Source: a virus
Length of the DNA stretch: 25,717 nucleotides
Direction: 5' to 3' (one strand)
Virus record (IMG/VR): IMGVR_UViG_3300021403_000050
Location: 1 to 25,717 of that record
Part shown: positions 44-18,048 of the stretch, piece after piece
Position numbering within the stretch: position 1 is the first letter of the stretch
How the letters are laid out: the number at the start of each line of letters is the position of its first letter
Notes under the pieces: generated by a model
The model's database searches: none
The model's input: only the letters and a program-made list of their open reading frames with translations
What the model was told of the DNA's origin: nothing
Made by a program: the position numbers and the translations under genes

Positions 44-1459
44 CTACTGCCGGATGCAGGCGATGAGGCGGATCATGCCGACGGCGCCGTCGCCGCCGTC
101 CTGCCAGTAGGTGTTGTTGGAGATGCCGCCGCCGCCGCCGCCCCCGAAGTACCCGCCGTCGTGCGCGAGACCGCCGTAGGTGTCGCCGGCCCGGCCGCCC
201 GCACCCACGTGGGAGGCTCCACCATCGCCCATGAAGATGTAGGTCACAGCAGTGGTTGTGCCGCTGTATATGGTTCGCCCGTGCTGCCCGTCCTCGCCGG
301 GGATGGCGATGAAGTTCGCGGCGTACGAGGTGATATCCCCGCCCACGCCGAAGGTGGCGGAGGCGGGGGTGTTGCTCGCGGTTGCCCCGCCGCCGCCGCC
401 GCCGCCCTGGCAGACCGTATACCACCATTCGCCGGACGATCCGAACGACGTGATACCTCCGACGCCGCCCGTACCGTTGTTTACGCCCCCGGCGCCGCCC
501 GCACCGACCTTGAGGGAGACGTTCGCGCCGGCGGTGAACAGCTTCCCGGAGAACCAGCCCTCCGCATAGCAGCCGCCGCCGCCGCCGCCGGCCTGACCGA
601 CACCGGCGGACCCGGCATTGGCGCCGCCTCCGCCGCCTCCGCCGCCGACCATCATCACCCGCAGCCATTCCAGGCCCGACGGCACAGTCCAGGTGCTGTT
701 GCCCGCGGACTCGTAGTAGTTCACCGACATCTGAATAGTGCCCAGCGTGACCTGCGGGGCCGCCTGGGTCCAGGTCGTACCGGACACGAACGTTTCCAGG
801 CGTTGGGTCTGCTGGTTGTAGACGGTCATGCCGGGCCAGGCCTTGCCGTTGAGCAGGTTCCGGGCGGTGGTGGTGGGAACGGGCAGGCTCCCGCCGGCAG
901 CGACGGTCCACCGGTCGGTCGAGCGCATGTCGGTGATGGTCACCTTCGTCATGTCGTTGGCGTTGGCCGGCAGCGTGTACCGGGCCAGCTCGACCCACGC
1001 CGGGGAACCGGTCACCGTCGGAACAGCCGGTGTCGCCGAAGGGGTACCCACGACGATGCGGATATGCGCATCCGAGTCGCCGTCGCCGTAGAACTGGTCG
1101 TTCTGTTGCAGGATGACCCGGTCGATACGCGAGTAGGTGCCGTCGGGAATCTGCCCGTCCGTGCCCATCGGCAGCAAGGTCAGGGCCGTGTCGGAGGTGA
1201 TCAGGTACGCGCCGCCGTTGGCCGAGCGTTGCGCCGGCATCACGTATTGCAAGGGGGCGACGGACAGGCTGGTCGTGCTGACAGCGGTGACCCTGCCGGG
1301 GTCGGTGTTGAACCCGGGCTTGAACCCGGACCGGGTATGCGGCTGGTCGAGGTAGGTCGCGGTATCGCGCATGCCGGGCGTCAGCAGCAACGCGATCGCC
1401 ATCCGCGCCTCTTCGACGTCGATGTTGTCGTTCACGGCCCACGACGATCGGATCGCCAT
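44..1459 (-). CDS. Tail fibre/adhesin with C-terminal polyglycine-rich domain
   Basis: This is a 471-residue protein, probably a receptor-binding or fibre protein at the tail tip. Residues 1-190 look like an N-terminal attachment region (WAVNDNIDVEEARMA, then a strand-rich segment). Residues 255-268 (STWTVPSGLEWLRV) lead into a glycine-rich domain to about residue 468, with uninterrupted Gly runs at 272-279, 291-296, 352-358 and 439-445. The phrase 'TWTVPsG..wlrV.mvGGGGGG' matches the glycine-rich domain common in phage fibre proteins, and polyglycine-II sandwiches are known from T4-like gp38 adhesins. The ATG at 1459 is preceded by GAAGAAGGGGG about 9 bases upstream. It lies 29 bases after the Dit-like gene. 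The role is inferred from position and composition; the receptor is unknown. Confidence 0.75.
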   Translation of the reverse strand: MAIRSSWAVNDNIDVEEARMAIALLLTPGMRDTATYLDQPHTRSGFKPGFNTDPGRVTAVSTTSLSVAPLQYVMPAQRSANGGAYLITSDTALTLLPMGTDGQIPDGTYSRIDRVILQQNDQFYGDGDSDAHIRIVVGTPSATPAVPTVTGSPAWVELARYTLPANANDMTKVTITDMRSTDRWTVAAGGSLPVPTTTARNLLNGKAWPGMTVYNQQTQRLETFVSGTTWTQAAPQVTLGTIQMSVNYYESAGNSTWTVPSGLEWLRVMMVGGGGGGGGANAGSAGVGQAGGGGGGCYAEGWFSGKLFTAGANVSLKVGAGGAGGVNNGTGGVGGITSFGSSGEWWYTVCQGGGGGGGATASNTPASATFGVGGDITSYAANFIAIPGEDGQHGRTIYSGTTTAVTYIFMGDGGASHVGAGGRAGDTYGGLAHDGGYFGGGGGGGISNNTYWQDGGDGAVGMIRLIACIRQ

Positions 1460-2424: not shown

Positions 2425-5400
2425 CAGCCGAGCCCCCTCGCCAGCCAGTCCAGGTCCCGGGCCACGACGGCCGCGTCGGCGCCGTGCTCGTGGTAGTTCT
2501 CGATGTTCAGCCCGCCCCGGGCACCCGCGCCGGCTTGCCGGGCGAGGGCGTGCATGTCGGTGAACTGCTGGTCGGTCAGCACCGCATCCGGGGCGCTCGA
2601 GCCGTGGTAGACGGGCATGACACCGCCGGGCAGGCCACGGGTGTCGGGCAGCAGCCCGCCCGCGTCGAACGACATCGGCGGCTCCGGCCACCCGTAGGCA
2701 AGGAACGCCTTGAGCCGTTCATCCTTGGAGGCGTCCAGGATCGTCGAGCCGCGGGCCGGGCCGCCGGCGGCGAGGCCGGGCAGGTGCAGGATCTCGTCGT
2801 AGTACGACAGCTTGGTCCCCACGTGCCCGATCGCCAGCGGGGTGCCGTTGCCGTGGTAGGCCTCGGCGTGCAGACCGTCGATGTTGGCCGCCGTGTGCGA
2901 GCCGCGCTTGAGGTAGACGGTGAACCGGCCCGGCCCGGCCGCCATTCCGAATTTCCCGGCACCCATGCCGGAGGTGGTGAAATACCGCTTGTAGAGACTG
3001 TTGCCGGTGGCCAGACCCCAGAGATTGCCGACCAGGCCGGAGCAGTCGTACCGGTCGGGCCCGACAGCGGTCCACAGATATGTTTTCCCCTGCTGCCCGA
3101 GCGCCCATTGCTGCATCGATTTGAGCAGCGGATCGGGCGACAGGGTACCGGTCCACGGTTTCGTGTCGCCGGGTGTGCTCTTGTAGCCGCCGACCACGTT
3201 CTTGAGCCATCCGACGGCGGTGTCGGTAATCCGCTGCGGGATCCCGGCCATAAGTTTGAACCAGGTGCTGTCCTGGAACGGGATCTGCGCCACGAGTTTG
3301 TTCGACAGATCGGTGAGGAATTTCTTCGGGTCGCGGACCGCGTCGAAGGCGGCCTTCGCGAAATCGGCGACGACACCGGCGACACCTTTGATCTTGTTGC
3401 CGATCCAGCCGAACACCCCGCCGCCGTCCTTGTAGGCGGGCAACCCGTCCGCACCGGTGCGCGGGCGTGCACGGACGGCGCCGCCGGCGGCGAACCCGGC
3501 GAGCTCCGACAGCCGGCCTGCCAGGGCGGCGCGGCGCAGCTTGAGCATGTTCTCGTGGCCGCCGATCGCGGCGACCTCCGCAGCCGTCCACACGTGCTCG
3601 TCGTCGGAGAGCCGGGCCAGGATGCTGTCGCTGGTGCTCGTGCCGGGGCCGTGCACCGGGCCGCCGGTGGCGAACGTCTTGGGCAGGCTGATGCGGGGGA
3701 TCGGGAACCCGAAGCCGGTGATCTTCAGGAATCCGGCGACCTTGTTCAGGGTGTCGATGATGCCGTCGTCGATGACGGTGTTCACGACGAACCTGACCGG
3801 GGCCTTCATCAATTCCTCGAGGCCCTCCCACACTTTGCCGATTGCTTTTACGCCGTCTTCGAAAAGCGGTTTCACTGTTTTGGAAACGTAGTTTCCGAGT
3901 TTGTCGAATACGCCTTGTATCCAGCCCCAGACGGTGTTGATCGTCGTCCAGATTTTGTCCCAGGCCGGTTTGATCGCATTTTCGTAGAGCCAGGTGAAGA
4001 CCGGCCCGAGCGTAGTCTTCAGGTACGTCCAAATTGTAGAGAAGATACCGGATATCAACCCCCACGCCCATTGAATGGTGCCCCAGATCCCTTTGAACGC
4101 GGGCTCGATGATCGTGTGCCACAGCCAGCCGAAAATACGGCCGAGGACGACGACCGCGATCACGAAGATCCCGAAGATGACGCGGATGATTCCCCAGGCG
4201 ATACCGATCGCGACCTGGATGCCCTGCCAGGCCGGCTCGATCACGTTGTGCCACAGCCACTCGAAGATCGGCGCGAGCACGGTGGTGATGAACGTCCAGA
4301 TCGCCTGGAACACGACCTGGATCACCGTCCAGGCCACCTGGATCGCCGCCCAGATCCCCGCGAACGCGGGCTCGATCACGTTGTGCCACAGCCACAGGAA
4401 GATCGGCGCCAGGACCGTGGTGATGAACGCCCAGACAAGCTGGAGGTAGATCTGCACGCCGGCCCACCAGAGCTGGATCACCGTCCAAATGCCCTGGAAC
4501 ACAGGGATGAAGACGTTGCGCCACAGCCACAGCAGGATCGGCACCAAAGTGCCGGTGATGAAGTCCCCGATGGCCTTGAGCGCAGGCCAGATGTACTGGT
4601 TCCAGGCGGTGACGAAGAACCCGGCTATTGCCTTCCATGTGCGGTCGACGAAGTCGTGGAACCACTGGTTCTTCTTGTAGAGGATCACGATCGCCGCGAC
4701 GACCGCCACGATCGCCACGATGATCCCGGTGATCGGGGAGGTCAGAACGGCCAGGGCCCCGGTCAGGCCGACCGTAGCGGCCTCGGCAACCCCCTCGGAG
4801 GCGGCCAGGCCGTCGGCGCCGACCGCGGCGACACCCTCGGAAACGGCGAGCTCGTCGGTTGCGACGGCCGCCGCGCCCTGGGACACAGCCAGGGTGTCGG
4901 CGCCGATCGCCGCCGCCGTCTGCGCGGCGGGCATCAAACCCAGGCGCGTGAGAACTATCTTGATGCCGTCGCCGACCTGGCCGAACGCGCTGCTGATCTT
5001 CGACACCGTCTGGATGACCTTCGCCACGCTGGCGAGGCCGGCGATCGCGGCGGCGCCGGCGATGAGGAGCCCGAGGATCGTGGTCAGGGTGCCGGTGTCC
5101 ATGCCCGCGATGTAGTCGAACAGCTTGGTGAAGAACCCGAGCGCCCATTCGCCGATCGGCGCCAGGGCGACGATGACGTTCTTGACCGCGCCCCACATGG
5201 CTTTGAGCAGCGCGGCGACCTTCGGGATCTGCGCCATGGCGTAGGCGAGGAAGTCGTGGAAGCCCTTGCTCTGCCCGAGGTTCGTCGCCCAGATTGCGAC
5301 CTTCTGCAGGATGTCCAGGAAGCCCTGCCCGACGGTGCCGGCGATCGGCCCGAACGCCTCGAGCAGCCCGGCGACGGTCCGGGCCGCGTAGCCGAGGGCC

Positions 5401-7697
5401 TTGGCGAAGCCGGGCAGGGCCTGGGCGGTGATCCCGGCCAGCCATGTCAGGAAGTCCTGCCAGAACGGGGAGGAGAACTCGGTCAGCAGCGACCCCATCG
5501 CCCCGCCGATCGCGGCCGACACCTGCGTGGCGAACGTCGTGAGGATCGGCAGCATCGTCGGCAGGAACCGCTTCAGCCCCGCCTCCAGGGGGCCGGCGAA
5601 CCCCTGGGCGGCGCGCAGCAGCGGCCCCAGATCGAGGCCCTTCAAATACTTGACCAGCGACGCGGCGGCCGGTGACAGCTTCGCGAGTTTCTTCGCGGCG
5701 TCGTCGGCTGCCGACCCGGTGCCGGCGATCGCGGTGTTCTGCTGTTGCTGGGCGCGGGTGACCGCGCGTTGGGCGTCGGCGACCGACTGGGCGGCCTGCA
5801 CCCGCTGGTAGGCGGCATCCGACTCGGACTTGGCCAAGGCACGCTGCGCGTCGGCGATCTTGGTCGCACCGTCCTGCGCGACGGTGACCTGATCGGCCTG
5901 GGCCTTCGCGTAGGCAGCGCGCCGGTCGGCGAGATCCTGCTCCGCCTTGAGCTCGGCCTTCTTCGCGGCGACGACCAGGTCGGAACCCTCGATGCCCTGC
6001 TTGTCCTGCTTGGCCTTGGCCTGCGCGAGCCGTTGCGCCTGGGTCTGCAGGTCGCCGTTCTGGGTACTGAGCCGGTCGTAGTTGAGCTGGGCCTGCTCGC
6101 GCTGGGCCTTGGTGGAGGCCGGATTCGCCAGGACCGAGTTGAGGTCCTTCTGCGCCGCGGCCAGGTCGAGGGCGTTCTGCCGCTGGTCCTCGGCGTTGTG
6201 CGCGATCTGGGAGGCAAGGTCCTCCTCGTCGCGGCGGGCCTGGTCGCGGGCGTCGTTGACGGCCTTCTGCGCGGCGGCGACGTCCAAGGTCGCCTGTCGC
6301 ACCGCGGTGTACGCATCGCGGGTGCGCTGGGCGGCGGCCTGCTCGTCGGCGGCGACCCGCTTGGCGACCTCGCCGACGTTGCGGCGGGCGTCGGCCACGG
6401 ACTGGTCGGCGGCCTCGATCTGCCGGGCCGCGGAGACCTTGGTGCGGGCCAAGTTGCGTTCCGCGTCGGCTATCGCCTGGGCGCTCTGGACGGACTTCTG
6501 CGCGGCCTGCCCGGACTTGGTCTGCGCCTTGCCCATCGCCATGTAGGCGGCAACCATCGGGGCGATACCGGCCAGCAGCACCGCGGCGGCGCCGAATGCG
6601 ACGGCGGCGCCGACGGCGATCGCCCCGAGGATCGGCACGACCGCGGCCAGCGCCGGGACCAGCAGCGCGGCGATCAGGCCGCCGACGGCGACCATCGCCC
6701 CCATCTTGATCGCGGCCCCGGACGCGGCGAAGTCGACCAGCTTCATCCCGCCGGCCGCCGCACCGGCCGACACCGCGGTGCCTTCCAGCTCGGCGTTGAC
6801 GCCGGCGATCTTCGCCTGCGCCTCGCCGATGTCGAACTTCAAGTTCGCGTGCGCCGAACGCTTGAGGACCTCGAGTTCGGCCAGCAGTTCCGCGATCTTC
6901 GCCTTCGCCGCGGTGTCGTCGAGGTCCCCGCGGATGTGCAGGTCACGGATCGAGGCGATCTTCACCTTGATCGCGGCGACCGCCTCGTCGATCGGGGACG
7001 CGTCGACACCCGGGCGGATGTCGGGCAGGGCCTTGTTCGCGGCGTCCAGCGCGGCACGCAGCCGGGCGGCGAACGCGCCGGCGTCGACCTGCGGCTCGAC
7101 CTTCGGGGTGGCGTGCTCTTTCGCCAGGCCCCGCAGTTCGGCGTGCACGGCGGTGAGCTGCGCCATGACCGCGACCGCGTTGGTGTCGATCTTGACGTCG
7201 GGGTGTTCGGTCTTGAGCTTCTCGATCTCCCGCGCCAGGCTCGAGGCCTGCCCGCGCAGCAGCTGCAGTTTCGCGACGGCCTCGTCGGCGGAGATGTCGA
7301 CGCCGATCCGTTTGCCGCCCAGGTCCTCCAGTTCCTTGCGGATGTGGGCGGCCTTCTTGTCCACGTCGGTGGAGTCGGCGGTGAGGGTAATTTTCGGCAG
7401 GCCTTTGAGTGCCTTGCTGATGCCGTCGCCCATTGTGTGGCCGAACCGGTCGCCGAAGTCGCGGCCCATCTTGTCGGCCTGTGCCGGGATGTCGCGCTGG
7501 GCGCCCTTGAGGCCGGAGATCACGGACGAGGACACCTGCCGGCCGATCGGGGCGGCCATCCGCCGGCCGAGCTGTTCCCCGGCCGCCGTGGCCTCGGTGT
7601 CCAGGTCACGTTTGACGGCGGCGGCGAACCCGCGCGCGTTCGGGACGACGTCGACCTCGACCTTGCCGAACGGCTCTTCTCCTCCGGGTTGGGTCAC
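2424..7697 (-). CDS. Tape measure protein with embedded NlpC/P60-like domain
   Basis: At 1757 residues this is the longest gene in the window. At about 1.5 angstrom per residue it predicts a tail near 260 nm. The GTG start at 7697 has AAGGGGAGGG upstream. In order: an alpha-helical N-terminus, a very hydrophobic stretch (about 330-390), a long Ala/Gln/Arg/Asp-rich coiled coil (about 390-670), a second hydrophobic stretch (about 985-1007), and five Trp-rich units of 44-45 residues (1058-1281). A C-terminal domain around 1530-1640 carries YDCSGL with Cys1552 and a His at 1601 in 'SHTAANIDG'. That Cys/His layout is typical of NlpC/P60-type peptidases built into actinophage tape measures, which are thought to act on the cell wall during DNA entry. 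The gene follows the frameshifted tail chaperones, as expected, and its stop overlaps the Dit start. Catalytic activity is inferred, not shown. Confidence 0.95.
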   Translation of the reverse strand: MTQPGGEEPFGKVEVDVVPNARGFAAAVKRDLDTEATAAGEQLGRRMAAPIGRQVSSSVISGLKGAQRDIPAQADKMGRDFGDRFGHTMGDGISKALKGLPKITLTADSTDVDKKAAHIRKELEDLGGKRIGVDISADEAVAKLQLLRGQASSLAREIEKLKTEHPDVKIDTNAVAVMAQLTAVHAELRGLAKEHATPKVEPQVDAGAFAARLRAALDAANKALPDIRPGVDASPIDEAVAAIKVKIASIRDLHIRGDLDDTAAKAKIAELLAELEVLKRSAHANLKFDIGEAQAKIAGVNAELEGTAVSAGAAAGGMKLVDFAASGAAIKMGAMVAVGGLIAALLVPALAAVVPILGAIAVGAAVAFGAAAVLLAGIAPMVAAYMAMGKAQTKSGQAAQKSVQSAQAIADAERNLARTKVSAARQIEAADQSVADARRNVGEVAKRVAADEQAAAQRTRDAYTAVRQATLDVAAAQKAVNDARDQARRDEEDLASQIAHNAEDQRQNALDLAAAQKDLNSVLANPASTKAQREQAQLNYDRLSTQNGDLQTQAQRLAQAKAKQDKQGIEGSDLVVAAKKAELKAEQDLADRRAAYAKAQADQVTVAQDGATKIADAQRALAKSESDAAYQRVQAAQSVADAQRAVTRAQQQQNTAIAGTGSAADDAAKKLAKLSPAAASLVKYLKGLDLGPLLRAAQGFAGPLEAGLKRFLPTMLPILTTFATQVSAAIGGAMGSLLTEFSSPFWQDFLTWLAGITAQALPGFAKALGYAARTVAGLLEAFGPIAGTVGQGFLDILQKVAIWATNLGQSKGFHDFLAYAMAQIPKVAALLKAMWGAVKNVIVALAPIGEWALGFFTKLFDYIAGMDTGTLTTILGLLIAGAAAIAGLASVAKVIQTVSKISSAFGQVGDGIKIVLTRLGLMPAAQTAAAIGADTLAVSQGAAAVATDELAVSEGVAAVGADGLAASEGVAEAATVGLTGALAVLTSPITGIIVAIVAVVAAIVILYKKNQWFHDFVDRTWKAIAGFFVTAWNQYIWPALKAIGDFITGTLVPILLWLWRNVFIPVFQGIWTVIQLWWAGVQIYLQLVWAFITTVLAPIFLWLWHNVIEPAFAGIWAAIQVAWTVIQVVFQAIWTFITTVLAPIFEWLWHNVIEPAWQGIQVAIGIAWGIIRVIFGIFVIAVVVLGRIFGWLWHTIIEPAFKGIWGTIQWAWGLISGIFSTIWTYLKTTLGPVFTWLYENAIKPAWDKIWTTINTVWGWIQGVFDKLGNYVSKTVKPLFEDGVKAIGKVWEGLEELMKAPVRFVVNTVIDDGIIDTLNKVAGFLKITGFGFPIPRISLPKTFATGGPVHGPGTSTSDSILARLSDDEHVWTAAEVAAIGGHENMLKLRRAALAGRLSELAGFAAGGAVRARPRTGADGLPAYKDGGGVFGWIGNKIKGVAGVVADFAKAAFDAVRDPKKFLTDLSNKLVAQIPFQDSTWFKLMAGIPQRITDTAVGWLKNVVGGYKSTPGDTKPWTGTLSPDPLLKSMQQWALGQQGKTYLWTAVGPDRYDCSGLVGNLWGLATGNSLYKRYFTTSGMGAGKFGMAAGPGRFTVYLKRGSHTAANIDGLHAEAYHGNGTPLAIGHVGTKLSYYDEILHLPGLAAGGPARGSTILDASKDERLKAFLAYGWPEPPMSFDAGGLLPDTRGLPGGVMPVYHGSSAPDAVLTDQQFTDMHALARQAGAGARGGLNIENYHEHGADAAVVARDLDWLARGLG
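3855..4526 (-). repeat. Five tandem Trp-rich 45-residue repeats inside the tape measure
   Basis: Units begin at residues 1058, 1103, 1148, 1192 and 1237 of the tape measure and share the pattern L[WY]xN[VA][FI]xP[AV][FW]xGIW. At DNA level, units two and three are nearly identical across their starts: the plus-strand stretches ending at 4395 and 4260 both read cggctcgatcacgttgtg or one base off, exactly 135 bases (45 codons) apart. Unit number would directly change tail length. Confidence 0.85.
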
Positions 7698-11445: not shown

Positions 11446-12135
11446 TCACCACGTGTCCGGGGGTTGCTGGCTCAGGCCGGCGGCGCGCAGGATCCCGGCG
11501 ACCTGCGGGCTGATCCTGGTGGAGGCGCTCTTGGCCTGCCCGGCGGCGACCCGGCCGGTCGCCCGGCCGATCGAGATCGACCCGGCGGACAGGCTCGAGT
11601 AGACGTCCAGGGCACCGGACGGGTCGCCGGTGTCGTTCCACCAGGCGACGAGCTCGCAGACCGCGTCGCGGACCGCCTGGCGTTGGCCGGGGTCGGACGG
11701 GAACCCCTGGTCGTCGACGCAGTAGCGGGCCGTCAGCAGCATCAGGTCGATCTCGCGAGTCGCGTCGGCGAGCATCCGTTCGCAGTCCGGCGGCGGCTCG
11801 TCGCGCATGTAGGCGGCCAGGTCGGCGCTGGTGGCGTACGAGTACTGGTCGGGCACAGCCATCCGGTCGGGGGCGACCGGGACCTCGTTGACGATGCGGC
11901 CCTTGCCGGTGCCGGTGACCGTCCACTCCTGGTACCACAGGCCGCCGACGTCGTAGGGGTCGACCACAGCCGTCCACGTCTTGTGCCCGTCGGAGCTGAC
12001 CGCGACCGCCGGGACCTGCCGGCGCAGCCCGTCGACCGGATCGGGCGGCGACCACACCACGAGCGTCGCGGACGTGGTCTCGTCGTAGCGGTCCAACACC
12101 AGCGTGGCGACCTGCCCGATGCCCACCTCGGCCAC
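11446..12135 (-). CDS. Head-tail connector (adaptor) protein
   Basis: A 229-residue protein with a strand-rich N-terminal part (about 1-85; IGQVATLVLDRYDETTSATL) and a helical C-terminal part (about 105-215). In the latter, 'DLAAYMRDEPPPDCERMLADATREID' and 'VRDAVCELVAWWND' have the pattern of HK97 gp6/SPP1 gp15-like connectors, which form the ring below the portal. The GTG at 12135 is preceded by GAAGGGGGTGGGG; an upstream Met in the frame lacks a site and would overlap the previous gene. It is followed by the stopper and gp10-like genes, an arrangement that confirms the head-tail joining module. The extra N-terminal domain makes it longer than many stand-alone connectors. Confidence 0.75.
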   Translation of the reverse strand: MAEVGIGQVATLVLDRYDETTSATLVVWSPPDPVDGLRRQVPAVAVSSDGHKTWTAVVDPYDVGGLWYQEWTVTGTGKGRIVNEVPVAPDRMAVPDQYSYATSADLAAYMRDEPPPDCERMLADATREIDLMLLTARYCVDDQGFPSDPGQRQAVRDAVCELVAWWNDTGDPSGALDVYSSLSAGSISIGRATGRVAAGQAKSASTRISPQVAGILRAAGLSQQPPDTW

Positions 12136-12163
12136 AACCCCACCCCCTTCTCGTGCTTGTTGT

Positions 12164-12469
12164 TCAGGTGATGCCGGCGCCGGCACCGGCCGCCTCGGAC
12201 ACGGCGGTGGTACCGGTGTCGGGTCCGGTGGACGCCCGCGGCCCGGCCTTCGCAGGCGTTGCCGCGGCCCGGGGCCCGGTATCGGTCGTGCCGGCCCGCG
12301 GCCCGCGGCCGCCGGCCGCCGGGCCGGTAGTCGCCGCGGTGGTGAGCCCGGCCGGCAGGACCGGCAGCGGCGCGACCGCGACCAGCCTCACGTGCACGGT
12401 CAGCCGGGCGTTGGCGAACCGGGCGCCGCCGGGGGTTACCTCGGCCGGCAGCAGCAGTGTCAGCAGCAC
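12164..12469 (-). CDS. Small protein with Ala/Thr/Pro/Gly-rich tail, unknown function
   Basis: A 101-residue protein starting at the GTG at 12469, with GAGGGGG about seven bases upstream inside the end of the previous gene's stop region. Residues 1-38 may form a short strand domain (LLTLLLPAEVTPGG, then NARLTVHVRLVAVAPLPV). The remainder is low complexity: A, T, P and G with scattered R and K (GPRAAATPAKAGPRAS). The first residues are hydrophobic, but no clear signal peptide or membrane span is present. It lies between the repeat protein and the connector, at the edge of the inferred head-decoration block. Composition alone gives no function; a linker-bearing virion protein is plausible. Confidence 0.55.
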   Translation of the reverse strand: MLLTLLLPAEVTPGGARFANARLTVHVRLVAVAPLPVLPAGLTTAATTGPAAGGRGPRAGTTDTGPRAAATPAKAGPRASTGPDTGTTAVSEAAGAGAGIT

Positions 12470-12481
12470 CAGCAGCCCCCT

Positions 12482-12979
12482 CTACGGTCCGACCCAGAGC
12501 GAGCCGGCCCAGGCGGTGAACTCGGTCAGCGGCGCCCACCGGCTGCCGTTCCAGACGGTCACGGTGTCGGCGGACACCCACCGGGTGCCGTTCCACAGGA
12601 AGGCGCGGGTCATCGTGTTGGTATAGAAGACGCTGCCGGGCCGGGCGGCGGACAGGTAGACCGGTGTCTTGAGCGACCGCCGGCCGCTGCCCAAGTTCGT
12701 TATCCGGGGCCCGTAGTAGACACTGTTGGGTCCGACGGTCGGCTCCACCCGGAACGCCGGGATCGCGCCCTGCCCGAGTCGCGCCCCGGCCGGGATACCC
12801 CGCAGCGTGTAGTACACGCTGCTGCCGGTGGCACCGGCGGGGCTTTGCACGACCAGGAACGGCCACCAGCCGACACCGAGGTAGATGCCCTGCTTGGGCA
12901 TCGTGTAGTAGACGTTGTCGGTCAGACCGGCGACCGGTGTGCGCGGCGCATAGGTGACACCCGTTCCCAGGTCGGCCAC
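12482..12979 (-). CDS. Virion-associated protein of four ~32-residue SVYY repeats
   Basis: A 165-residue protein starting at a GTG with GAGGG upstream, nine bases after the 341-residue gene. Four units begin with closely similar motifs: NVYYT at 22, SVYYT at 54, SVYYG at 86 and SVFYT at 116, giving spacings of 32, 32 and 30. A partial unit (GVTYAPRTP) starts near residue 7. The end carries two Trp repeats, FLWNGTRW (127-134) and TVWNGSRW (141-148). Strand-rich repeat proteins with aromatic faces are common on virion surfaces, so I infer an accessory structural or carbohydrate-binding role, but no named family is recognised. Confidence 0.65.
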   Translation of the reverse strand: MADLGTGVTYAPRTPVAGLTDNVYYTMPKQGIYLGVGWWPFLVVQSPAGATGSSVYYTLRGIPAGARLGQGAIPAFRVEPTVGPNSVYYGPRITNLGSGRRSLKTPVYLSAARPGSVFYTNTMTRAFLWNGTRWVSADTVTVWNGSRWAPLTEFTAWAGSLWVGP

Positions 12980-12988
12980 GACAAGCCC

Positions 12989-14014
12989 TCAGGCGGCCGT
13001 GTTGATGAACACGCCGGGCAGCGCGTATCCGCCGGCCGATACGTGCTCGTAGGTCTTGCCGTTGACCGTGATCGTGTCCCCGGTCAACACCGACGCCTTG
13101 CGGAAGAACAGCAGGAAGTCGTCGGGCACCAGGCCGATGGAGTGCCCCGCGGCGGGCATGTTGGCGCCGCCGCCGGTGTTCGGCCCGCCGACGCTGCGCG
13201 TGATGTGCATACGGGAGCCGACGTAGACACCGTTCCAGTTCAGGTCCGGGACGCCGTCGCCGGAGCCGATCTGCCCGGCGAGCGCGGTGAAGATCGCGGG
13301 GTCGAAACCGGTAGTAGTGGTGGAGAGGATGGACGCATAGGCGGTGCGGCACACAGTCGGGGCCGTCGCCGCCGGGTGCTGCCAGGCCGTCGTGCCCGTG
13401 CCGGCGCAGGCGTGGGCCATGAACGCCAACGGCCGCGAGTCGGTGGTATTGGGGTGCAGCCGATCGTAGGTACCGACCCCGCACGCATAGACCGGGACGG
13501 TCGCCGTCCCCCAGTGCATCCACACGAAACGACCGGTCACCAGCACCCGCAGGATGTTGCCCTGCACGGCCTGCGGCGGTCCAGTGCCGGACAGGGCACC
13601 GGTGCAGCCGGTCTGGTAGCCGCCGGAATTGCCGAAGGAAGCAAGACCGATCGTCAGCTCGTTGCCGCCCGCCGCGTCCAGCGGATACCCGTTGGCATCC
13701 AGGAACCCGAGCCCGGAGTAGCCACGTAAGGCCTTCTTGGTGATCCTGGTCGGGTCGTCGTACTCCAGGCAGCCGCCAAGCTGGACGCGGCCCTGGCTGG
13801 CCGTGTCGTACACCGTGATCAAATACCACTGGTAGCCGTCGGTGGTGCCGTCGTTGCGCCACACGTCGTAGAAGCGAGTGCCGAAGACATACCCGGCAGA
13901 GACCTTCGAGTACTTGCCGGAGGCATTCAGCGCCGAGTCCAGGACGCCTTTCATCTCGTCGGTGGACGCCTGCGTGCCCGTGGCCTGTGTGAGGGTCACC
14001 TTGCTGTACGTCAT
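12989..14014 (-). CDS. Unknown virion-block protein, 341 residues
   Basis: The ATG at 14014 follows the collagen-like gene by five bases and has GGAAGGG about ten bases upstream. The first 50 residues ([20 protein letters not shown], then [14 protein letters not shown]) look folded and are followed by '[21 protein letters not shown]'. Five cysteines are spread along the protein (82, 137, 178, 203, 222), and the 170-225 region has Cys, His, Asp and Trp in a pattern that could be a loop-rich fold or surface enzyme. The end ([20 protein letters not shown], then PGVFINTAA) is typical of a short final strand domain in fibre-like proteins. There is no signal peptide or membrane segment. Location next to the collagen-like gene suggests a partner on the virion surface. 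I do not recognise the family. Confidence 0.6.
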
Positions 14015-14019
14015 GCGGT

Positions 14020-15570
14020 TCAGCCCTTCCACCAAAAGTCGCCGACCTGCGGATTTACCGGGGGAGTCGGGCTGAAACTGACGACGTTCAAACTGGTCGG
14101 TCCGGCCGGGCCGGTCGCCCCGACCGGGCCTTGCGGGCCGACGGGTCCGGACTGGCCGGTCGGCCCGATAGGGCCGGTCGCACCGCCGGGCCCGGCAGGG
14201 CCGGTCGCCCCGGCAGGCCCGGTAGGGCCGGTCGCGCCTGCGGGGCCGGGATCGCCCGCGGGGCCGGCGGGGCCGGTCGCCCCGGCCGGGCCGGTACCGC
14301 CGGCAGGGCCGGGGTCGCCCGCAGGTCCGGCGGGGCCGGTCGCACCGGCCGGGCCGGTGCCGCCGAGCGGGCCGGCGGGTCCGGTCGGCCCGGCAGGTCC
14401 GGGGTCGCCTGCGGGGCCGGCCGGACCGGCGGGTCCGGTGGCCCCGGCCGGGCCGGTCGCGCCGGCCGGGCCGGGCTGGCCCTGCGCACCGGCAGGACCC
14501 GGCGGGCCCTGCGTGCCGCGCATCTGGTGGAACAGGGTGACCGACTGGTTGTTCTTCGCTACGCCGACACCGTTCTGGTAGGCGACGGGTACCTCGATGT
14601 ACGTCTGGGCCGGATAGTCGACGGCGTCGGCGGTAACGGTGAACACCGCGAAGGCGGACGAGTTGCTCCGGTCCTGGACGGTGAGGGTGTCGCCCGCGGT
14701 GATGGCGCGCAGCAGCGGGGCGACGGCGTCGCCGGAGGATTGCACGTAGTCGATCCACAACAGCGCCGAGACGTCGGCGGTGGCGCCGTCGGTACGCAGT
14801 TGCCCGTTCGAGGGCGGCGCGACCGAGGTAAGGGACCAGTTGTAGGCGTAGGCCGACGACGACGACCCGGCAGGGCCTTGCTCGCCGGTCGGGCCGGGAA
14901 TGCCTTGCTGGCCGGGGTCGCCCTGCGGTCCGGTCGGTCCGGCGGGTCCGGTCGCGCCGGCCGGTCCGGTCTGGCCGGTCTGCCCGGCGGGGCCTTCCGG
15001 GCCGGTCTGCCCGGTAGGGCCTTCCGGGCCGGCGGGTCCGGTGCCACCGGCCGGGCCGGCAGTGCCGGCCGATCCGGGTTGGCCTTGCGGGCCAGGGTCG
15101 CCCGGCGCTCCGGCGGGTCCGGTCGGGCCGGTGGCGCCGGCGGGTCCGGTCGGCCCGGCCGGGCCTTGCGGGCCGGTCGTGCCCGGGTTGCCCGGCATGC
15201 CGGGCGGGCCTTGGGCGGCGTTGGTCGCGTCCTGCAGGACCTCGACAACGGCGCGAATGTTGCGCAGCAGCAGGTTCTGGGCGTAGGCGACGTCCCTGGT
15301 TTCGGCGGCCTGCCAGTCCAGTTCGCCGCGCAGGGTGTAGTCCGGCGGCGGGGCAGCAGTGTCGTCGAAGCCGGCGGACAGCACGATCTGGGAGAACGTG
15401 CCGCCGGGGCCTTGCGGTCCGGCGGGTCCGACAGGGCCGGCAGGTCCTTCGCCTCCGGCCGGTCCCGCAGGTCCCGGGTCGCCCGCGGGTCCGGGGTCGC
15501 CGGCAGGCCCCCGGTCGCCTTGCGGGCCGGTTGCCCCGGTCGGGCCGCGAACAGCCAGGCCGGTCCTCAT
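14020..15570 (-). CDS. Collagen-like virion fibre protein with three Gly-X-Y tracts
   Basis: A 516-residue protein with three collagen-like tracts: residues 9-58, about 121-235 and about 354-491. They are separated by two non-collagen segments: 59-120 (helical, [18 protein letters not shown]) and 236-353 (strand-rich, [20 protein letters not shown]). The tract triplets are mostly [12 protein letters not shown] and GPQ. The last 25 residues ([19 protein letters not shown]) resemble short end caps found on phage fibre proteins. Collagen-like stalks form trimers in known phage fibres. The gene sits between the capsid gene and the connector, so a capsid or neck fibre is more likely than a tail fibre. 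The ATG overlaps the upstream stop as ATGA. Function is inferred from composition and place. Confidence 0.85.
14098..15546 (-). repeat. Collagen-coding Gly-X-Y repeat tracts
   Basis: Three imperfect nine-base periodic tracts encode the collagen segments (about 15546-15397, 15210-14866 and 14511-14098). The periodicity is a glycine codon every third codon, mostly GGC/GGG followed by CCG GCC or GCG ACC. Such tracts are prone to gain or loss of units by slippage. Confidence 0.8.
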
Positions 15571-16012: not shown

Positions 16013-16019
16013 CCTCCTT
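16013..16019 (-). promoter_or_regulatory. Ribosome binding site deciding the GTG start at 16004
   Basis: The minus strand carries AAGGAGG, a near-perfect match to the 16S rRNA tail, with eight bases before GTG. It touches the stop codon of the upstream 124-residue gene, so reinitiation is likely. Confidence 0.75.
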
Positions 16020-16393
16020 CAACCGGCGTCGACGGTCAGCGGGGCGGTGGTCACGGTATAGGTGCCCTGCCCGCTGAACGTCTCGACGATCGGGTTGCCC
16101 AGGTCGTCGACCAGCTCGTCGGCACCGATGAACTTGCCGCCGGAAAGGGCGGTCCAGTAGCCGAACCAGGCGACGATCGCGCCGGCCGGGATGTTGAAGG
16201 TAGCCGGGTCGGACAGGTCCCGGGTGCCGGGGCCGCTCGGGCTGCGGACGACCTGCTGCCGCTGGTAGGGCGGGGCGCCGCCGGTCAGCTCGTTGTCCCC
16301 GGCAATGCCGGGGTCGTCGGCGTGCAGGCTCATGTAGCCGGCGGCGGCCGCCAGGCCGTCCACGGCGGCGTCGCGCCCGTCGTCGCTCAGCAT
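16019..16393 (-). CDS. Small phage structural protein (fibre-associated type)
   Basis: A 124-residue protein with a perfect AGGAGG seven bases before its ATG. The first 20 residues form a helix (DDGRDAAVDGLAAAAGYMS), followed by 'LHADDPG..G.NELTGGAPPYQRQQV'. Then come a strand domain with 'FNIPAGAIVAWFGYWTALSGGKFIGADEL' and the end 'ETFSGQGTYTVTTAPLTVD'. The pattern of 'LhtadPg..G.nEvtGg.paY.R..v' with a final 'f.gqGtYt' strand is seen in small phage structural proteins often linked to fibres. It follows a 120-base gap with an inverted repeat and leads the accessory block toward the collagen-like gene. Confidence 0.65.
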   Translation of the reverse strand: MLSDDGRDAAVDGLAAAAGYMSLHADDPGIAGDNELTGGAPPYQRQQVVRSPSGPGTRDLSDPATFNIPAGAIVAWFGYWTALSGGKFIGADELVDDLGNPIVETFSGQGTYTVTTAPLTVDAG

Positions 16394-17136: not shown

Positions 17137-18048
17137 TTACGGCAGCGGTGCGGCGTGGATGAGAACGGCCCGCTGCGCGTCGACGACCGTCATGCCGTAG
17201 AGGATGTCGAGCGACACCATGTCGACCTTGTGCGTGATGTCGTAGCCGTACGTGACCCGGATGCCCAAGCCGTTGTAGTTGGCGATCGCGCACTGCCCCG
17301 CGGCGACGCCCATCGGCACGGCCAGGGGCCGCACGGCGAGGGCGATGGCGTCGCGGTGGAATGCCAGGGACACCTCGCTGGCGGGGTTGCCGGTGGTCTG
17401 CGGCGGCAGGCTGATCCCGTTGTGCTCGTAGGCGTCGAACGAGAAGAGCCGGTTGCCGAGGCTGGCTTCGCGCAGGCCCTGCGTGTCGCCGCGCTCGTTG
17501 GCCTTCTTCAGCAGGTCGTTCTTGAGCCATTCGCCGGAGGTGATCGATCCGACGACGGCGTACCGGTCGGTGATCGGCACACCGCGCAGCGACAGCTCGC
17601 GGCGGGCGGCGATCAGCGACTCCGGCGTGTTCCACATCTCGCCCGCGACGTTGCCGACGTAGGTGGGGATGCTGGAACGCAGCGCCAGCAGGTCGGCCTC
17701 GAGCTGCTGGATGATCGCCGCGACGGCCGGCTGGATGAACCGTCCCGAGAAGTCGTCGATCTTCAGGGTCAGTTCCTCCGCGGTGATCGCGAAGGACACG
17801 TCCTTGAACTTGTTCAAGGTCATCGGGATGCCGGTCTCGGTGTAGTTCTGCAGCACAATGCCGGTCGCCCGGTTGAAGTCGTTGGCCACGAAGGTCTGCG
17901 GCTTGCGGATCGTGATGGTGTCACCGATCTTGTTCGCGAACTCGTCCTCGTAGTCGCGGTGCACGAGCTGCGACAGGACGGTGTCGCGGTACAGGATCGC
18001 GATCGCCCGGCGGGCGATGACGGTCGGGGTAAGGATTGTGTTAGCCAC
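17137..18048 (-). CDS. Major capsid protein, P22 coat type
   Basis: A 303-residue protein forming the head shell. The N-terminus (ANTILTPTVIARRAIAILYR, then LVHRDYEDEFANKIGDTITI, then RKPQTF) is the highly recognisable opening of P22-coat-like (HK97-fold) major capsid proteins of Gram-positive phages. Later 'NKFKDVSFAITAEELTLKID' and 'DRYAVVGSITSGEWL' fit the E-loop and core regions. The end (GYDITHKVDMVSLDILYGM, then RAVLIHA) is the family's C-terminal strand region. The start is GTG at 18048 with GAGGGAGA about nine bases upstream. It follows the scaffold gene after a terminator-like hairpin. P22 coat itself is longer; about 300 residues is common for the actinophage branch. Confidence 0.92.
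   Translation of the reverse strand: MANTILTPTVIARRAIAILYRDTVLSQLVHRDYEDEFANKIGDTITIRKPQTFVANDFNRATGIVLQNYTETGIPMTLNKFKDVSFAITAEELTLKIDDFSGRFIQPAVAAIIQQLEADLLALRSSIPTYVGNVAGEMWNTPESLIAARRELSLRGVPITDRYAVVGSITSGEWLKNDLLKKANERGDTQGLREASLGNRLFSFDAYEHNGISLPPQTTGNPASEVSLAFHRDAIALAVRPLAVPMGVAAGQCAIANYNGLGIRVTYGYDITHKVDMVSLDILYGMTVVDAQRAVLIHAAPLP

Follow-up and report, generated by a model that had tools for sequence, protein, structure and literature searches.

The protein encoded on the minus strand at positions 12482–12979 of the window (the whole 25,717-base stretch of viral DNA analysed here) is, as judged from its sequence, a new arrangement in which a known phage fibre-tip module is joined to an orphan region. 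The module, a three-copy W-x-G-x-x-W ‘triplet’, occupies residues 126–163 (12491–12604, minus strand); the orphan N-terminal region carries a V-Y-Y motif every 30–32 residues. The product, referred to here as the SVYY protein, is best explained as a small component of the virion of a siphovirus that infects actinobacteria and is related to the Streptomyces hiyaaviruses. We tentatively suggest, at somewhat less than an even chance, that it serves a collagen-like fibre, probably one of the head, as an accessory component or as its tip, and is docked there by its C-terminal triplet.

The source record is that of a virus with a GC content of 71% and its structural genes on the minus strand. The SVYY open reading frame encodes 165 residues from a GTG start, six bases before which stands the sequence GAGGG (12986–12990, minus strand), a putative ribosome-binding site. 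Its GC content by codon position (0.59/0.60/0.90) follows the pattern of the neighbouring genes, and it is for this reason very likely translated. Very long antisense open frames also occur on the plus strand—for example 2484–5675, of 1063 residues—but chance alone would be expected to produce these at such a GC content, and they were not counted as genes. The sole other copy of the SVYY gene in IMG/VR is carried by a sister contig, identical across 16,495 bases around the gene, with the compared stretches at 99.8–100%.

The C-terminal triplet

A preliminary description of this DNA had noted a paired WNGxRW ending, which is indeed present but proves to be a triplet with WAGSLW as its third copy, and a separate module: a 14-residue unit, repeated three times (WNGTRW, WNGSRW, WAGSLW), that forms the strongest internal repeat of the protein. 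A search of phage records matched the triplet region weakly, at E 0.3, to Rhodococcus phage Mbo4 and, at E 3, to Mycobacterium phage Sheen; the translated proteins of both open with three W-x-G-x-x-[WF] units, ~14 residues apart. A profile trained on seven actinophage tip proteins, with the SVYY protein left out, matches residues 126–163 with a score of 33.7 bits, equalled by none of 2000 shuffles. Among the 30,256 distinct frames that 313 loci yield, the same profile picks out the SVYY protein at E 2.6e-8. Of the 66 rows of that scan, 58 come from the loci of the Donkeykong gp24 scan (see below), seven are the training proteins and one is the SVYY protein itself; all the other matches are tip proteins of the training type. 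We consider the presence of the triplet to be firm. The profile matched no PDB chain, and found nothing in 394 actinobacterial genomes, a set that holds no positive control.

The triplet-bearing tip proteins include Mbo4_023 of Rhodococcus phage Mbo4, gp7 of Mycobacterium phage Sheen, gp24 of Mycobacterium phage Donkeykong, and gp33 and gp31 of the Gordonia phages Neville and LittleFella. The SVYY protein shares with these the three W-x-G-x-x-[WFY] units, ~14 residues apart, and a fibre gene nearby. It differs in several respects: across the 313 loci the triplet is N-terminal in every other protein found, whereas here it lies at the C-terminus (126–163 of 165); their genes sit directly behind that of the shaft, whereas the SVYY gene is two genes behind the fibre gene and within the head-gene region; and their glycine-rich or other body is replaced by the unrelated VYY region.

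The triplet also touches on a longer phage fibre module, GDxYY..GkLYvWdGtsW, of which we collected 19 instances and which has been solved in the crAss001 tail fibre gp22 (PDB 7qoj, residues 786–817; E 6e-4). Residues 112–137 of the SVYY protein fit this GDxYY..WDGTxW module less firmly than they do the triplet, with a best-domain score of 9.4 bits (0/3000 shuffles), with the whole-protein score being reached by 51/3000; the fit overlaps the evidence for the triplet, leaning as it does on the W-x-G-x-x-W part, and motifs 1–3 of the N-terminal region do not match the module.

Gene neighbourhood

Following the direction of transcription, the major capsid gene (17137–18048, minus strand) is succeeded by three small genes, one of which (16019–16393, minus) encodes a small head protein (phrog_240 head protein, E 7e-11; Pfam Gp80, E 2.6e-6), then by the gene for a collagen-like fibre protein (14020–15570, minus; Pfam Collagen, E 4e-42, with matches to many tail-fibre PHROGs), a 341-residue orphan (12989–14014, minus; no family, its sole relative being on the sister contig), the SVYY gene, a 101-residue open reading frame (12164–12469, minus; no family in Pfam or PHROGs) and the head-tail adaptor (11446–12186, minus; true start probably near 12138). 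The closest relatives of both capsid and adaptor are found in the Streptomyces phages Galactica, Keanu, Spocter and Hiyaa, the capsid being 51–54% identical to their annotated major capsids and the adaptor 38–42% identical to annotated head-to-tail adaptors.

The content of the slot between capsid and adaptor varies. It holds one small gene only in the Gordonia phages Aleemily, Morgana and VanLee and in Corynebacterium phage PSonyx, and several genes, one of 3.3 kb, in three hiyaaviruses, the Streptomyces phages Galactica, Keanu and Hiyaa. The 3.3-kb gene product, annotated as a minor tail protein only, has long C-terminal degenerate repeats of the TAHxVxVRK... LGxA type in both Galactica (L008:4523-7834) and Hiyaa (L013:4540-7872). 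In a closer relative (locus L005), with a capsid 83% identical to that of the window, residues 16–143 of an orthologous collagen-like protein match the middle domain of the window fibre (62.5% identity over 128 residues), but this protein then ends in a different domain of ~180 residues. From such comparisons the slot is, in sequence terms, a variable fibre cassette, its fibre core being kept and its end exchanged; a pattern that points, in turn, to the SVYY protein as a fibre-end part. No relative of the SVYY protein was found in L005. Homology of the 101-residue open reading frame to an L005 reading frame was considered and not established (1.6 bits).

SPP1 gp12, described as a collagen-like, capsid-bound trimer (PMC7602432), provides a possible model for the collagen-like gene lying here among head genes. 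On account of that precedent and of the gene position, we would place the fibre of the window on the head and not the tail. We know of no SVYY-like partner of SPP1 gp12. The same gene position, flanked by the genes for major capsid and head-tail adaptor and near that for the phrog_240 head protein, would also suit a capsid decoration protein, binding the head lattice directly and independently of the fibre in the manner of small beta-rich decoration proteins; but with a collagen-like fibre gene close by, and with a triplet known from fibre-tip contexts and not from lattice binders, we think this unlikely.

The N-terminal motif region

The preliminary description had placed its feature at 12554–12916, an interval that does lie within the open reading frame but spans residues 22–142 only, clipping both ends. 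The four motifs it listed are all present on the minus strand: NVYYT (motif 1, residues 22–26; 12902–12916), SVYYT (motif 2, residues 54–58; 12806–12820), SVYYG (motif 3, residues 86–90; 12710–12724) and SVFYT (motif 4, residues 116–120; 12620–12634), the last of which leads into the triplet. Their recurrence is beyond chance. The pattern [NSDT]V[YF]Y occurs four times in residues 1–121, as against at most twice in any of 20,000 shuffles, and the best four five-residue windows of this region are exactly the four motifs, a result equalled by none of 1000 shuffles. Wider windows gave two shuffles in 1000 as good at 7 residues and seven at 10; the width-5 test, applied across the whole protein, likewise gave two in 1000. 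A cruder count of similar 4-mers was weaker, with 14/500 shuffles reaching the observed value. As for the 32/32/30 spacing, assessed post hoc, gaps within 2 of each other arise in 0.57% of random placements, and in 0.03% when a mean gap of at least 30 is also required.

The intervening linkers, by contrast with the motifs, are dissimilar: the summed local-alignment score of units 1–3 was reached by 351/1000 shuffles, and the similarity of the best pair (units 1 and 2) was equalled in 99/1000. Because shuffled sequences match one another as well as the stretches between motifs do, we accept the region as a regular periodic motif without demonstrable homology of its four units; the ~32-residue period first proposed thus survives, while the reading of four whole-unit repeats is not confirmed. 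An apparent in-register match between units 1 and 4 was rejected, as 550/2000 shuffles were as good over 20 residues.

Searches with the SVYY protein returned the sister contig only from IMG/VR; 24 of 50,697 phage records, all partial matches with a best E of 0.3; and, among 142 loci, its own copies together with Mbo4 and Sheen, both matched weakly through the triplet. In 394 actinobacterial genomes, 63 gave scattered hits at E ≤ 0.1 (best 0.001); the open reading frame lists of two of the ten loci taken from this search (L305 and L306) show nothing phage-like. At the DNA level, a search pattern with three VYY motifs set at intervals picked out 65 stretches in IMG/VR, of which, after filtering for reading frame, only the sister contig resembles the SVYY protein. 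No family was matched in Pfam or NCBIfam, and the best values in PHROGs and the PDB were E 0.25 and E 0.35. The earlier remark that the repeat was not recognised accordingly holds for the N-terminal region, though not for the WNGxRW part, which belongs to the actinophage fibre-tip module; and because nothing searched holds a relative of residues 1–121, their role is read from position only.

Structure models of the whole protein (mean pLDDT 36.6) and of residues 104–165 with 11 relatives (mean pLDDT 59.8) are poor; both put strands near the VYY motifs, and a strand-rich fold, as previously suggested, is plausible at that low confidence. The fuller proposal—four equivalent blades forming a small beta-prism or solenoid with a repeated, predicted sugar-binding face—can draw on a regular aromatic motif matched by none of the shuffles and on its near-regular spacing. 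We nonetheless judge it improbable, as the units lack similarity outside the motif, arguing against four equivalent blades, the fourth motif runs directly into a different module, and no lectin family or solved structure was matched in Pfam, NCBIfam, PHROGs or the PDB.

Triplet proteins in other actinophages

The triplet gene is preceded by a fibre-like or collagen-like gene in Sheen, Mbo4, Donkeykong, locus L039, Neville, LittleFella and BuzzLyseyear, and the upstream ‘shaft’ proteins of these seven all end in LPxxGxxGVLYVVx-stop or a variant thereof (GVIYWIPV in Mbo4, GVIYHVTE in L039, GKIYVVLP in LittleFella). A scan with Donkeykong gp24 found the triplet in 68/79 loci and an upstream end of LPxxGxxGVLYVV type in 68/68 of these, the 68 loci being mutual close relatives and hence not independent cases. 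We infer that the shaft end and tip start resemble the two halves of the longer GDxYY..WDGTxW module. Pairs of shaft end and triplet start that look as if one module had been split can be seen at L007:2087-3975, L006:613-3699, L217:899-2358 and L039:6376-8184, as well as in L300, L301 and L302. Programmed frameshifting was rejected as the cause of the split, since neither in Mbo4 nor in L039 is there any overlap between the two genes.

The collagen-like protein of the window differs from these shafts in that it lacks an LPxxGxxGVLYVV end: the shaft-end profile scores at best -2.8 bits against its terminus, with 1335/2000 shuffles as good, and the candidate half-module there was rejected on this count, the longer module faring no better (1087/2000). 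Motifs 1–4 of the SVYY protein were also considered as copies of the half-module, which they resemble by eye, and rejected, with 63, 478, 360 and 203 of 1000 shuffles reaching the scores of units 1–4, respectively.

Two of the triplet proteins fall in PHROG families, phrog_2804 (‘virion structural protein’) and phrog_754 (‘minor tail protein’). In addition, Bxb1 gp33, the ‘tail wing brush’ (PDB 9d93), is homologous to the body of Sheen gp7 (E 1.8e-17) and to that of Donkeykong gp24 (E 4.9e-118); the homology covers their glycine-rich body and not the triplet, the N-terminus of gp33 being of another sequence type, and gp33 and the SVYY protein are dissimilar in sequence. Polyproline II bundles have been described in gp33 (PMC13243192). 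The chains of 9d93 comprise three copies of gp33 and six of gp31; the 63-residue gp32, which precedes gp33, matches none of them. Bxb1 (L220:2944-3935) and Aeneas (L303) display the same arrangement in other letters, with gp32 ending in DTIYVVVE-stop and, in place of the triplet, a brief VGG/VGD/VGA run at the start of gp33. Literature on the Bxb1 tail wing, collagen-like fibres and minor tail proteins, head fibres and Hiyaavirus yielded no title or abstract dealing with the triplet or the split; the main Bxb1 structure paper lay outside that scope.

That the SVYY protein is instead a fibre-assembly helper (chaperone), absent from the mature virion, is improbable: the gene is small and confined to its lineage, and it follows a fibre gene, which is a usual position for such helpers, but triplet proteins fall in families whose names describe components of the virion, and gp33, its body homologous to that of two of them, is present in the solved Bxb1 tail.

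Proposed role of the SVYY protein

Under the fibre-docking reading that we favour, the triplet would form small beta-hairpins, docking the protein on a trimeric fibre with perhaps one hairpin for each fibre chain; the N-terminal region, with its V-Y-Y strand every 30–32 residues, would then be the exposed part, either touching the host or capping the fibre. Several findings count against docking at the fibre end: the triplet is C-terminal here only, another gene separates the SVYY gene from that of the collagen-like protein, and the shaft-end half-module profile matches neither the collagen end of the window nor the SVYY motifs.

A more specific scheme, which we put forward as speculative and rather unlikely, sees the triplet as a ‘three-for-three’ adaptor. 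Three tandem hairpins of one chain would complete the three identical half-modules with which a homotrimeric fibre ends, thereby mounting a single tip protein; the halves would be those divided, in many actinophages, between a shaft gene (end LPxxGxxGVLYVV) and a tip gene (start VWNGTxF), with the SVYY protein as a rearranged form, its adaptor placed C-terminally behind a row of VYY strands of its own. What began as an unrecognised repeat thus becomes a testable idea about fibre attachment, in which a small module may let phages swap tip proteins on trimeric fibres, and a solved tail could offer a direct check of the recurrent division between shaft end and tip start. Until a relative or a structure comes to light, interest in the orphan VYY region is local.

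Elsewhere in the window, the gene at 44–1459 (minus strand) encodes a further virion protein, perhaps the tail tip, whose front resembles phrog_3398 and whose end matches Pfam Gly_rich_2.
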